In this document: positions 3,074 through 58,676 of the stretch, piece after piece | How the letters are laid out: the number at the start of each line of letters is the position of its first letter | How positions within the stretch are numbered: position 1 is the first letter of the stretch | NCBI GenBank assembly: GCA_027067055.1 | Contig: JAMOMK010000036.1 | Location: forward strand, 1 to 64,000 | Source of the DNA: Lysobacterales bacterium | GTDB taxonomy: Bacteria > Pseudomonadota > Gammaproteobacteria > Xanthomonadales > Marinicellaceae | Length of the DNA stretch: 64,000 nucleotides | Direction of reading: 5' to 3' | The notes under the pieces: generated by a model | What the model saw: only the letters and a program-made list of their open reading frames with translations | Databases searched by the model: none | What the model was told of the DNA's origin: nothing | Translations under genes and position numbers: made by a program

Positions 3074-3937
3074 ATGTCCACAGTTAAGGGATTCATTATA
3101 CTAATGGTTGTCATTGTCAATACATTGTTTTGGGTGCCTGTTTTGGTGCTATTCTCTCTAGTAAAACTTATTATTCCTTTAGCGATAGTGAGAAAGTATG
3201 TTTCTAAATTTCTTGTCTGGATTGCTAATAATTGGATTTGGCTGAATTCCAAAATTCATTTATTGTTTCACGGTAATAAAGTTGAGTTGAAAGGTATGGA
3301 AGATTTAAAACCCGATGATTGGTATTTGGTTATTAGTAATCATGCGGCAGCAGCAGATATTCCTATCCTGCAGAATGTATTCTATAAGAAAATTCCATTC
3401 TTAAAATTCTTCCTAAAACACGAACTTATCTATGTACCTTTTTTAGGTGTGGCATGGTGGGCGCTTGATTTTCCATTTATGCGTCGTTTTTCGGCGAATT
3501 ATTTAGCCAAAAATCCACACATGAAAGGCAAGGATTTAGAAGTGACAAAAAAAGCCTGTGAAAAGTTTAAAGATTATCCTATATCAGTGATAAATTTTAT
3601 AGAAGGCACGCGTTTTTCAAAGGAAAAACACAAAAAACAACATTCAAAATACAAGCATTTACTCAAACCAAAATCAGGTGGAATCGGATTCGTATTGGGT
3701 TCGATGGGTGAGCAAATGAATTATTTGGTACAAACTAGCCTAAATTATTCTCCAAAAGCGCCCTCCGCATGGGAATATTTATGTGGAAAGTATGATAAGG
3801 TGGAAATAATAGTAGAAAAAATTAACATCCCAGACAATTTGAAAAATAGAAACTATATCACCGATATGGAATTCAGAAAAGAATTGCAACAATGGCTTAA
3901 TGGCTTATGGGAGAATCAAGATGCGAGGTTATCATGA
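3074..3937 (+). CDS. YihG-like 1-acylglycerol-3-phosphate O-acyltransferase (PlsC family)
   Basis: The 287-residue protein has an N-terminal hydrophobic segment (about 7-40). It then carries the acyltransferase motif H-x4-D as NHAAAADIP (H90, D95) and the glycerolipid-binding F-I-E-G-T-R motif (175-180). The sub-family features around PFMRR and KHLLKPKSGG resemble YihG/YihR-type inner-membrane acyltransferases, which acylate lysophosphatidic acid or related lysolipids. Its stop codon overlaps the start of the next gene (ATGA at 3934), so translation of the repeat protein is probably coupled. The exact lipid substrate cannot be told from sequence. Confidence 0.88.
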   Translation: MSTVKGFIILMVVIVNTLFWVPVLVLFSLVKLIIPLAIVRKYVSKFLVWIANNWIWLNSKIHLLFHGNKVELKGMEDLKPDDWYLVISNHAAAADIPILQNVFYKKIPFLKFFLKHELIYVPFLGVAWWALDFPFMRRFSANYLAKNPHMKGKDLEVTKKACEKFKDYPISVINFIEGTRFSKEKHKKQHSKYKHLLKPKSGGIGFVLGSMGEQMNYLVQTSLNYSPKAPSAWEYLCGKYDKVEIIVEKINIPDNLKNRNYITDMEFRKELQQWLNGLWENQDARLS

Positions 3938-4587
3938 GTGCTGAAAATTTATTTGATGTAGTGTTTAAAGGCAAATTTGCTAGAGAACTGGAAAAAAATA
4001 GAGCAGTTTTACATTTTTCAAAAGTCTTTAAATTACCTGTTGAAAAGGCAGAAAGATTCTTCGATGGCAATCCGCGCGTACTAAAAAAAGACCAAGTGCT
4101 TGAAAAAGCAAACAGCTTCCGTCAAGCATTAAAAAAAGCAGGCTTGAAAGTTTCTTTAGTCAAAAGGGTTAATGAAAACTTCAAAGCCGAGCTCACCATG
4201 TCAGCACCAGGTGTGATACTTGTTTCGCCTCCTGCACCAATCGTTGCGAATATCCCGACCTCACAGTTTTCACTGGATGAAGTGGGTGCACAATTCGCCA
4301 ACCCAGAACCTGTGGTACCTGTCAATATAGACACCACCTCATTCACTATTGACGAAGAAGACCGAGAGATTGTCGAAAAAGAAGAAATCCCCGAACCAGA
4401 ATTTGACGTCTCAAGCATCAGCTTAGATGAAGTCGGTGCCATCTTCGACGAACCACAAGAACTCCCAGGACCACACCTCGATATCTCCGACTTATCTTTA
4501 GATGAAGTCGGCGCAACGATTGTTGAGAAAAAACCAATAGCACCCGTTGAAATTGATACAAGTGGTATAAAATTGTTTGAAGAGTGA
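3934..4587 (+). CDS. unknown protein: small N-terminal alpha/beta domain plus SLDEVGA repeats
   Basis: I do not recognise a named family. The ATG at 3934 was chosen because it forms an ATGA overlap with the upstream gene and follows GCGAGG; the frame is also open for nine codons upstream. Residues 1-78 form a compact domain (FDVVFKGKF...RVLKKDQVLEKA...AGLKVSL) resembling, from memory, an N-terminal domain found before membrane modules in other proteobacterial proteins. Residues 105-217 are acidic and proline-rich with SLDEVGA at about 113, 163 and 188 and a degenerate FTIDEED copy at 137. There is no signal peptide or membrane segment, so it is probably cytoplasmic. Confidence 0.75.
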   Translation: MSAENLFDVVFKGKFARELEKNRAVLHFSKVFKLPVEKAERFFDGNPRVLKKDQVLEKANSFRQALKKAGLKVSLVKRVNENFKAELTMSAPGVILVSPPAPIVANIPTSQFSLDEVGAQFANPEPVVPVNIDTTSFTIDEEDREIVEKEEIPEPEFDVSSISLDEVGAIFDEPQELPGPHLDISDLSLDEVGATIVEKKPIAPVEIDTSGIKLFEE

Positions 4588-55678: not shown

Positions 55679-56458
55679 ATGAGTCATCTTATTCACCCAA
55701 CAGCCTTAATTGATCAATCGGCACAAATTGCTGATGATGTAAAAATTGGTGCTTATACAATCGTTGAAGCAGATGTAAGCATTGGAAAAGGTACAGAAAT
55801 TAAACATCATGTGACTATTGCTCGATATACAGATATTGGAGAAAATAATCGCATCTTCCAATATTCATCCATAGGCGAAGAGTCACAAGATAAAAAATAC
55901 AATGGTGAACCCACACGAACACTCATTGGAAATAATAACACAATTCGGGAATATGTATCTATACACCGTGGAACAGTTGATGATAAAGGATTAACCCAAA
56001 TAGGCAATGATAATTGGATAATGGCTTATGTTCATATTGCGCATGATTGTGTCTTAGCCAATAATATAATCATTGCAAATTGTGCAACTCTTGCAGGCCA
56101 TGTGCATTTAGATGATTATGTTATATTAGGTGGATTTACAAAGTTACATCAATTTTGCCGCATAGGAGCTCATGCTTTTACTGCAATGGATACCAACTTC
56201 CAAAAAGATTTACCACCTTATGTGATGGCTCAAGGAAGTCCTGCAAAACCCCGTATCATCAATGCAGAAGGACTCAAACGCCGTGGTTTCAGTCAAGATG
56301 ATATCACAGCCCTTAAGAAAGCCTTTCGGTTACTGTATAAATCTGATTTACGTCTGACCGATGCCTTAGAAGGAATGCAAAAGTTGGCTGATAAGCATGA
56401 TTGTGTTCAATTAATGGTTGATTTCATCAACTCAAGTAGTCGCAGTATTGTTCGGTAA
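55679..56458 (+). CDS. lpxA: UDP-N-acetylglucosamine acyltransferase
   Basis: ATG 55679 gives MSHLIHPTALIDQSAQIADDVKIGAYTIVE. The 259-residue left-handed beta-helix enzyme has NTIREYVSIHRGTVDDKGLTQIG, the catalytic His in YVHIAHDCVLA, and the C-terminal RGFSQDDITALKKAFRLLYKS. It catalyses the first acylation of lipid A. It is separated from lpxB by an unknown gene. Confidence 0.97.
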   Translation: MSHLIHPTALIDQSAQIADDVKIGAYTIVEADVSIGKGTEIKHHVTIARYTDIGENNRIFQYSSIGEESQDKKYNGEPTRTLIGNNNTIREYVSIHRGTVDDKGLTQIGNDNWIMAYVHIAHDCVLANNIIIANCATLAGHVHLDDYVILGGFTKLHQFCRIGAHAFTAMDTNFQKDLPPYVMAQGSPAKPRIINAEGLKRRGFSQDDITALKKAFRLLYKSDLRLTDALEGMQKLADKHDCVQLMVDFINSSSRSIVR

Positions 56459-56469
56459 GAGAAAATCTA

Positions 56470-57531
56470 ATGGAACACAATAAGTTTAGAGTTATTGTTA
56501 CAGGGCGATATAAAAAGCAGATTGATATAGCTATTGCTGCAGAACGAATAGGCCTGCATTCACCCATTACACCAACGCAAGCCTTAGCACTTATTCAATC
56601 AAGAGAATCACAAGTTTTGCACGGGTCAATGGAGCATGTAAAGGCTTATGAAATCAAACGACTTTTACAAGAAAGTGGTGTAGAGATTAAACTAGAACCA
56701 GCCCAAACTTATTTTGCCCAGTCAAGTGATGAACATAATGATGAAGAGAGCAAACCTTACTTATTGGCTAGGCTGTTCAATTTTTTTAAGAAAAAGCCCA
56801 AAACTGAACAGCAAGTCGAAATAAACTGGGAAGATAAGCCCCGCTTTAATCGTAGTACCATAATCTACAGCAATAAGATAAAGCTCCCCATAGGTTTAAT
56901 TTTAAAAGCGGCACTTATACTATTTGCTCTATGGTTTTTTTGGTTAAAAGCCATAACAACAGATATTTCTGGCGATGGTTTTGATGAATATGGTGATCCA
57001 ATTGTTATGGTGTTTACCAATAAAAGTTGCCAGCAAGAATGTTCACAAGTCTTGGGAAATTTAAGAGTACGTAAAGTTCCTCATGAACATTATATTATCA
57101 ATACAAGACTAAAAGATGATGATAAATATAAGTTATGGAAGAAGTACTCTAAAGACAGATTTCCATTTGTGATGGCAGGTAAAAACACACTAACAGATAG
57201 TAGTAATACCGGTTTAATTACATTATTGGGAACGACTTTTGGGAGTCAATATTTAACATCAATAGAAAAAGAACTCTACAGTAAACATTTTCATGAAGAT
57301 GGAACGCCAAAGATAGCCATTTATTGCAAAAGTAATAATGGTGTCTGTCAACAATTGAATAGAAAGCTAAAGATAGCTAGTTTAAAATTTAGTTATATTG
57401 AGGTAGATAAATTAGACAATACCAATTCTGTGGTGGAAACCTTGGAATTAAAACAATATCCTACCATGTGGAAGGGCTATAAAAAAACTCAAGGTACAGA
57501 TGTTAGTGGTATCTCATTGATGTTTGAGTAA
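56470..57531 (+). CDS. unknown membrane protein with two thioredoxin/glutaredoxin-like domains, between lpxA and lpxB
   Basis: I do not recognise the 353-residue protein as a named family. Residues 1-78 form a small alpha/beta domain (FRVIVTGRY...VLHGSMEHVKAYEIKRLLQESGVEIKL) reminiscent of that in the gene at 3934. A membrane segment spans about 139-159. Then come two similar modules: IVMVFTNKSC187QQEC191 with FPFVMAG at 231, and KIAIYC286KSNNGVC293 with YPTMWKG at 330. Each resembles a thioredoxin fold with a cysteine pair and a cis-proline. It starts 12 bases after lpxA and ends 5 before lpxB, so it is in the lipid A operon. Confidence 0.8.
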   Translation: MEHNKFRVIVTGRYKKQIDIAIAAERIGLHSPITPTQALALIQSRESQVLHGSMEHVKAYEIKRLLQESGVEIKLEPAQTYFAQSSDEHNDEESKPYLLARLFNFFKKKPKTEQQVEINWEDKPRFNRSTIIYSNKIKLPIGLILKAALILFALWFFWLKAITTDISGDGFDEYGDPIVMVFTNKSCQQECSQVLGNLRVRKVPHEHYIINTRLKDDDKYKLWKKYSKDRFPFVMAGKNTLTDSSNTGLITLLGTTFGSQYLTSIEKELYSKHFHEDGTPKIAIYCKSNNGVCQQLNRKLKIASLKFSYIEVDKLDNTNSVVETLELKQYPTMWKGYKKTQGTDVSGISLMFE

Positions 57532-57536
57532 ATATA

Positions 57537-58676
57537 ATGGGTTTTAATATAAAAACAATAGCCATAGTTGCAGGAGAAGATTCTGGTGATGCGCTTGGTG
57601 CCGAATTAATTAAGGATTTACTCCAGCTTAACCCTTATCTTGAATTTGTTGGTGTTGGTGGTGATAGAATGGTCAAAGCAGGTCTAAATTTAATCTGTTC
57701 CAACCAAGAATTTGCCATCATGGGAATTGCCGAAGTCTTTAAAAAGTTACCTAAATTATTAAAACTTCGCAAATATATTGTCAAAGAAATTAGTGCTGCA
57801 AAACCTGATGTTTTTATCGGCATAGATGCACCTGATTTGAATTTCCCAATTGAAAATATACTCAAAAAGCAGGGAATTAAAATCATCCACTATGTTAGCC
57901 CATCCATCTGGGCATGGCGACCCAAAAGAGCAATCAAAATAAGTAAATTAACAGATTTAGTTATGACCTTATTTCCTTTTGAACCGCAGTATTATGAAAA
58001 ACAAGGTGGAAAAGCGGTATTTGTTGGGCATCCATTGGCGCAGAATATTTCACTAGAAATTGACAAAAAACGTGCCAAGGAACAACTGAAACTAGATACA
58101 TCAAACCCAGTTCTGGCGTTATTACCAGGTTCCAGAACCAATGAGCTCAAAGCACACACTGAAATATTTATCAAAACGGCTTTGCAATTAAAGAAACAAC
58201 AAGCCAAATTACAAATTATTTCAGCCAATACCAATCAACAGAAACGAGACTATATTTTAACAATAGCCAAAGAAAATAATTTAGATATTTTGATGTTTGA
58301 TGATGCCACACAAGTCTTAAAAGCTTCAAATCTCGCCTTGCTTGCATCAGGTACCGTGGCATTAGAGGCAATGCTGTGCAAAACACCGATGGTTGTTGGT
58401 TATAAAATATCACCAATTACTTATGGCATTGTCAAAACATTCAACATGATGTTATTGCCCTATTACTCTCTGCCCAATGTCATCAAAGGTGATTTTTTGG
58501 TGGCTGAAGTCTTACAAAAAGACATGACAGTGACTAATTTAACTCAAGAACTGACTTTATTGCTTGATAAAGAAAAGCAAAAAAAACTAATTAAAGAATT
58601 TACCCAATTGCACAAAAGTTTGTTAAACCCCAATAATAATGCAGCCAAAGCCGTGATGAAATTTTTAAATGAGTAA
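57537..58676 (+). CDS. lpxB: lipid-A-disaccharide synthase
   Basis: The 379-residue GT19 glycosyltransferase has IVAGEDSGDALGAELI, GIDAPDLNFPIE, HYVSPSIWAWRPKRA, FVGHPLAQ, LLPGSRTNE, and LLASGTVALEAMLCKTPMVVGYK. It joins two lipid A precursors. Its stop overlaps the rnhB start by eight bases. Confidence 0.98.
   Translation: MGFNIKTIAIVAGEDSGDALGAELIKDLLQLNPYLEFVGVGGDRMVKAGLNLICSNQEFAIMGIAEVFKKLPKLLKLRKYIVKEISAAKPDVFIGIDAPDLNFPIENILKKQGIKIIHYVSPSIWAWRPKRAIKISKLTDLVMTLFPFEPQYYEKQGGKAVFVGHPLAQNISLEIDKKRAKEQLKLDTSNPVLALLPGSRTNELKAHTEIFIKTALQLKKQQAKLQIISANTNQQKRDYILTIAKENNLDILMFDDATQVLKASNLALLASGTVALEAMLCKTPMVVGYKISPITYGIVKTFNMMLLPYYSLPNVIKGDFLVAEVLQKDMTVTNLTQELTLLLDKEKQKKLIKEFTQLHKSLLNPNNNAAKAVMKFLNE

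Follow-up and report, generated by a model that had tools for sequence, protein, structure and literature searches.

A membrane-anchored protein combining a bL12-like domain with two glutaredoxin-like domains, encoded between lpxA and lpxB

What is the nature of the protein encoded by the gene that, in the 64,000-nucleotide stretch of DNA analyzed here (the window), is lodged between lpxA and lpxB, and does this location in the lipid A operon tell us anything about its role? The initial annotation of this locus, made from the sequence alone, described the product as a double thioredoxin-fold protein anchored in the membrane and proposed for it a redox or scaffolding function linked to lipid A or outer-membrane assembly. 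The gene, hereafter X, and its immediate neighbors are as follows.

56470..57531, + strand: gene X, an open reading frame of 353 amino acids with an ATG start, encoding a bL12-CTD-like domain, one transmembrane (TM) helix and two glutaredoxin-like domains
55679..56458, + strand: lpxA (UDP-GlcNAc acyltransferase), the upstream neighbor (Pfam Hexapep, E=9.7e-27; Acetyltransf_11, E=1.1e-26)
57537..58676, + strand: lpxB (lipid A disaccharide synthase), the downstream neighbor (Pfam LpxB, E=1.4e-111)

The presence of a gene for a 353-residue protein between lpxA and lpxB, as originally claimed, is confirmed by the frame itself and by the Pfam matches of the neighbors, which also include RNase HII; the annotated spacing of 5 bases to lpxB is correct as well, but X starts 11 bases after the end of lpxA rather than 12. 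Numerous stop codons close the opposite strand. In comparisons with the homologs from G003, G007 and G009, dN/dS ranges from 0.08 to 0.12 at dS of 0.77-1.03, and a ratio of about 0.1 indicates that X is a real gene under purifying selection. Upstream of lpxA, we take the open reading frames, as judged by their translations and not by a Pfam run, to be rseP, bamA, an OmpH/Skp-like gene, lpxD and fabZ; bam-lpx genes usually come in this order. Just 3' of rnhB, the product of the frame at 59253-60260 matches tocopherol cyclase (PF14249, E=3.9e-7) weakly, though above the cut-off. A PADLOC search gave no match to anti-phage defense, and there was no match indicative of plasmid carriage.

A phmmer search of the PDB with the X protein gave chance matches only (septin). 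An AlphaFold2 model obtained from the single sequence had a pLDDT of 36 and was discarded; the models discussed below were instead based on an alignment of six sequences (A1), namely, the window protein and its homologs from five congeners. The protein consists of the following parts.

56470..56709, + strand: N-terminal domain, residues 1-80, predicted to be cytosolic, with a fold like that of the bL12 C-terminal domain (b-a-a-b-a-b)
56890..56946, + strand: transmembrane helix, residues 141-159, predicted N-in/C-out from hydropathy and charge count (AlphaFold2 helix 141-163)
56977..57264, + strand: glutaredoxin-like domain 1, residues 170-265, with a CxxxC motif (C187, C191) starting helix 1 and the proline P232
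57301..57528, + strand: glutaredoxin-like domain 2, residues 278-353, in which NNGVC replaces the WCxxC of relatives, with the proline P331

The segment 141-159 is the only hydrophobic one in X, in agreement with the single membrane helix noticed previously. In the window protein, six lysines and arginines flank it on the N-terminal side versus two on the other, and an N-side excess is seen in 6/6 homologs, so the C-terminal domains are predicted to be periplasmic. The basic linker that connects the N-terminal domain to the helix is disordered in the AlphaFold2 prediction from six sequences.

The C-terminal half is modeled by AlphaFold2 as two compact domains (about 179-262 and 282-345) with a pLDDT of about 80-90, and Foldseek searches with this model returned glutaredoxins. 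When compared by hhalign with the single-domain glutaredoxins of this and related genomes, domain 1 scored 97.5% (E=8e-12) and domain 2 98.6% (E=1e-15). The profile and structure-prediction searches that had been suggested as a check of the initial annotation thus recover the thioredoxin fold in both anchored domains, specifically in its glutaredoxin version. The FP (231-232) and YP (330-331) loops, previously singled out as cis-proline-like, have prolines that are invariant in the six homologs. The window protein itself scores 13.1 bits against Pfam Glutaredoxin (PF00462), below the cut-off of 22.9, and is under the NCBIfam cut-offs as well; the Pfam cut-off is passed by both domains of the G008 homolog and by domain 2 of the G004 homolog.

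The cysteines of the window protein are at positions 187, 191, 286 and 293; all but C286 are invariant in the six homologs. The spacing in domain 1 is CxxxC in all members, with C187 located just ahead of helix 1, so that the annotated pair C187/C191 stands. The second proposed pair, C286/C293, does not. In alignment A7, the site in domain 2 reads GAQWCKSC in G004 and GAEWCSPC in G008, and CKSNNGVC or similar in the window and its close relatives; in the window protein, an asparagine (N290) occupies the nucleophile position and the resolving cysteine, C293, persists, and C286, an added cysteine that lies seven residues before C293, is confined to the window's subgroup. Because the relatives have WCxxC where the window lineage has N290, C286/C293 is not the usual redox pair, and the alignment with the GAxWCxxC of the relatives rules it out as an active-site pair; the two cysteines may form a disulfide. 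The CxxC or CxxS arrangement with an N-terminal nucleophilic cysteine is accordingly found in neither domain of the window protein, domain 1 having CxxxC and domain 2 NxxC. Both domains, the degenerate one included, evolve under purifying selection, with dN/dS of about 0.06-0.11 in more distant pairs.

The small N-terminal domain had been recorded without further description; it resembles the C-terminal domain of the ribosomal protein bL12. The AlphaFold2 model from six sequences has the b-a-a-b-a-b topology over residues 5-77 (pLDDT about 80), and its Foldseek matches are mitochondrial bL12 (TM-score 0.81 normalized by target, rmsd 1.9) and, more weakly, ClpS. A profile of this domain and its relatives in the family (A5) matches the E. 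coli L7/L12 CTD, 1ctf, with E=4.4e-4, and hhalign with the rplL-domain profile of the same genomes gives 82% (E=1.1e-5). The curated score of PF00542 is not reached, the best member being a weak match at E=0.018 and the scores in the genome search being under the cut-off, and the N-terminal domain of the window protein alone gave no match to the Pfam L12 model. As judged by the 82% hhalign probability between sequence profiles, the likeness to bL12 is remote. Domains of this kind are common at the N-termini of other proteins in this family of bacteria, where they head acidic-repeat proteins of about 220 amino acids, one of which is encoded at 3907-4587 in the window, and TM proteins of about 450 amino acids with a Cys-rich C-terminus. 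The product of 3907-4587 is a second bL12-CTD-like protein, of a type about 216-226 amino acids long with acidic repeats (IDxxxLxLDEVGA type), and unnamed proteins like it are found in many related genomes. The combination of a bL12-CTD-like domain, a TM helix and a tandem glutaredoxin is real and unnamed, with no curated model for this architecture among the Pfam and NCBIfam models searched; X consists of known parts in a new arrangement.

The redox half of X has relatives of its own. Three genomes of another order carry a shorter tandem protein (about 220-243 amino acids in G797 and G798) that consists of a single N-terminal helix and the same two domains, with CG[KR]PC and WC[GP][YH]C motifs, and the neighbors of these genes are unrelated to lpx. 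In the G661 copy (L165:1460-1520), a short tandem duplication shifts the frame near the first cysteine motif, which may reflect either a decayed gene or an assembly error. No other tandem copies were detected at an E of 1e-9 or better in a 398-genome sample of the phylum. Given that the free-standing relatives lie away from lpx, the redox module itself is not lpx-bound, and the form and distribution of these relatives imply that the redox half is a membrane-anchored tandem glutaredoxin of sparse occurrence, found by itself as well. The most fitting view of X is that of a fusion of this module with a bL12-like domain, with the fusion alone being linked to lpx. The occurrence of relatives at random loci without lpx linkage, which had been named in advance as evidence against the initial proposal, is therefore partly what we observed: the fusion is always linked to lpxA, within one genus, but the relatives of its redox module reside at unrelated loci in another order. 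What emerges from the comparison is a sparse and unnamed family of tandem glutaredoxins that are membrane-anchored and pair CxxxC with WCxxC.

The complete X gene is present in 6 of the 11 sampled genomes of its genus (the window and five congeners) and was detected nowhere else among 399 genomes of the order, searched with the C-terminal half as query, or 369 genomes of the class. In all six carriers, X is directly 3' of lpxA; lpxB comes next in five, and in the remaining one, G007, the contig stops. Among the genomes lacking X, G001, G005, G006 and G010 have lpxA without lpxB next to it, and G002, with a contig break inside lpxA and lpxB, was excluded from the comparison of this interval. 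In the sister genera g3 and g4, at the loci with readable orientation, lpxB directly follows lpxA with no insert. The lpxA tree is compatible with a gain of X either before or after G008 split off. Several side observations pertain to the genomes without X. In G001 and G005, lpxB is outside the lpx operon, next to a divergent mraZ-like gene and with rnhB after it (L028, L029). G010 (99% complete; L173) and G006 (85% complete) have lpxA and lpxH but yielded no lpxB; this absence may be an assembly gap or a real loss. Finally, at G006:C270:20312-20635 (about L174:5313-5636), 84 bases 3' of lpxA, there is a remnant of a Cys-rich C-terminal domain of the P0002-type bL12-like TM protein (41% identity, E=8e-25), in the same slot that X occupies in the congeners.

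The DNA around X is heterogeneous. Between G003 (locus L014) and G004 (locus L016), identity is about 97% across lpxA and approximately the first 78 codons of X, falls to about 50% from about 56705 to about 57570 of the window (the linker, the TM helix and both glutaredoxin domains), and is about 95% again in lpxB. Conversely, X is nearly identical in G003 and G009 (dS 0.03), yet the part of lpxB that follows differs by 20-30%. This pattern suggests that the lpx region is a recombination mosaic, in which near-identical flanks enclose no fewer than two strongly divergent C-terminal halves of X; for G004, with its 8% contamination, a chimeric metagenome assembly instead of recombination is possible.

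We favor, with a probability of roughly 0.55, the interpretation that X is a thiol-disulfide (or thiol-ligand) protein anchored in the membrane, working in the periplasm and binding another protein through its cytosolic domain. By the charge-based topology, X would be a bitopic inner-membrane protein whose bL12-CTD-like domain probably binds a partner protein in the cytosol, and whose domain 1, with its conserved CxxxC, is the likely thiol-disulfide center. Domain 2 is more likely to bind a substrate or partner in the window's lineage because the nucleophile is lost there, and catalysis is accordingly not assured. Being located inside the lpx operon, X presumably is co-expressed with it, and it probably originated when a common bL12-like domain was fused to a free-standing, membrane-anchored tandem glutaredoxin. 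Counting against the thiol-disulfide interpretation are the departure of CxxxC from the classical CxxC and the scores of the window protein below the Pfam and NCBIfam cut-offs. Furthermore, the periplasm does not normally contain much glutathione, and any glutaredoxin-type reaction in this compartment would therefore have to take its electrons from elsewhere. Conceivably, both folds are mere binding scaffolds with structural or vestigial cysteines, and X is a non-redox adaptor that tethers a cytosolic partner to the membrane. The protein-binding type of the N-terminal fold and the purifying selection on domain 2 despite its missing nucleophile are compatible with such a role; however, C187 and C191 are invariant across the homologs, including the free-standing ones of another order, and in the AlphaFold2 model these cysteines are at the N-terminus of helix 1, the place of the catalytic cysteine, so we regard this possibility as the less plausible one by a wide measure, though worth keeping in mind. 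More doubtful still is copper binding by the CxxxC of domain 1 in the manner of Sco: the spacing is that of the Sco copper site, and a literature search on CXXXC thioredoxin-like periplasmic proteins turned up papers on Sco and copper, but X is homologous to glutaredoxins, has no Sco family match, and has no recognizable copper genes beside it.

Whether X has anything to do with lipid A is a separate matter, and a chance passenger, that is, a gene inserted in a well expressed operon and functionally unrelated to lipid A, would be compatible with the thiol-disulfide interpretation. We lean toward this possibility, given that the sister genera keep lpxA and lpxB adjacent without X, that the free-standing relatives of the redox half are away from lpx, and that the lpx order is unstable in the genus, lpxB having moved in G001 and G005. 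Against it, X directly follows lpxA in every carrier, and no congener without X was seen with lpxA and lpxB linked, among about 10 genomes, some of them fragmented. Its operon position is all that ties X to lipid A, and the connection with lipid A or the assembly of the outer membrane that was proposed initially has little or no support, given the arrangement of the sister genera and the occurrence of the redox module elsewhere. An improbable but specific form of such a link is that the bL12-like domain, on the cytosolic side, keeps LpxA and/or LpxB at the inner membrane and the tandem glutaredoxin, on the periplasmic side, senses or sets thiol state, such as that of LptD or of other outer-membrane assembly factors with disulfide bonds, matching lipid A production to the redox state of the envelope. 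X, which part of one genus retains within a core operon for the envelope, is in this respect a testable candidate for connecting the lipid A enzymes of the cytosol with thiol chemistry in the periplasm; should such a link be absent, X would still be a modest case of domain fusion and active-site loss. The slot of X is also that of lpxI, which lies between lpxA and lpxB in Caulobacter (PMC3087551), so one could imagine that X replaces a missing UDP-diacylglucosamine hydrolase. The chances of this are negligible: a normal lpxH scores above the family cut-off in 10 of the 11 genomes of the genus, this one included, and X has a glutaredoxin fold and family affinities with no LpxI match. An LpxI-like substitute is ruled out because LpxH is present.

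Among known systems, LpxI, the only case that turned up in the literature on a gene between lpxA and lpxB, is similar to X in operon position but unrelated in fold. The Sco proteins, like X, combine a membrane anchor with a thioredoxin fold and CxxxC, but X is of the glutaredoxin type and has no sequence match to them. The N-terminal domain of X shares the b-a-a-b-a-b topology and a significant profile match with the ribosomal bL12 CTD (PF00542, 1ctf) but, below the Pfam cut-off, it is found outside the stalk protein, fused to a membrane helix, and, unlike the CTD of the stalk, belongs to a wider domain family in these bacteria. The same genomes encode secreted glutaredoxin proteins (e.g. G000:C84, L093) with signal-peptide-like N-termini, an N-terminal part that we take to be DUF4124-like (a literature search for DUF4124 with glutaredoxin found none), and one domain resembling domain 2 of X; in contrast to X, this single domain has a canonical WCGYC and no bL12-like domain accompanies it, and the G000 copy is on another contig, outside the lpx operon. 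In multi-domain thiol oxidoreductases, non-catalytic domains resemble the role proposed here for domain 2. Another parallel is the glutaredoxin family itself (PF00462; NrdH/YruB-type NCBIfam models), with which both domains of X share the fold, profile similarity, proline loops and the placement of cysteines where helix 1 begins, along with the WCxxC in domain 2 of the relatives in G004, G008, G797 and G798; X differs in being tandem, membrane-anchored and predicted periplasmic, with CxxxC in domain 1 and, in the window, a domain 2 that has lost its nucleophile.
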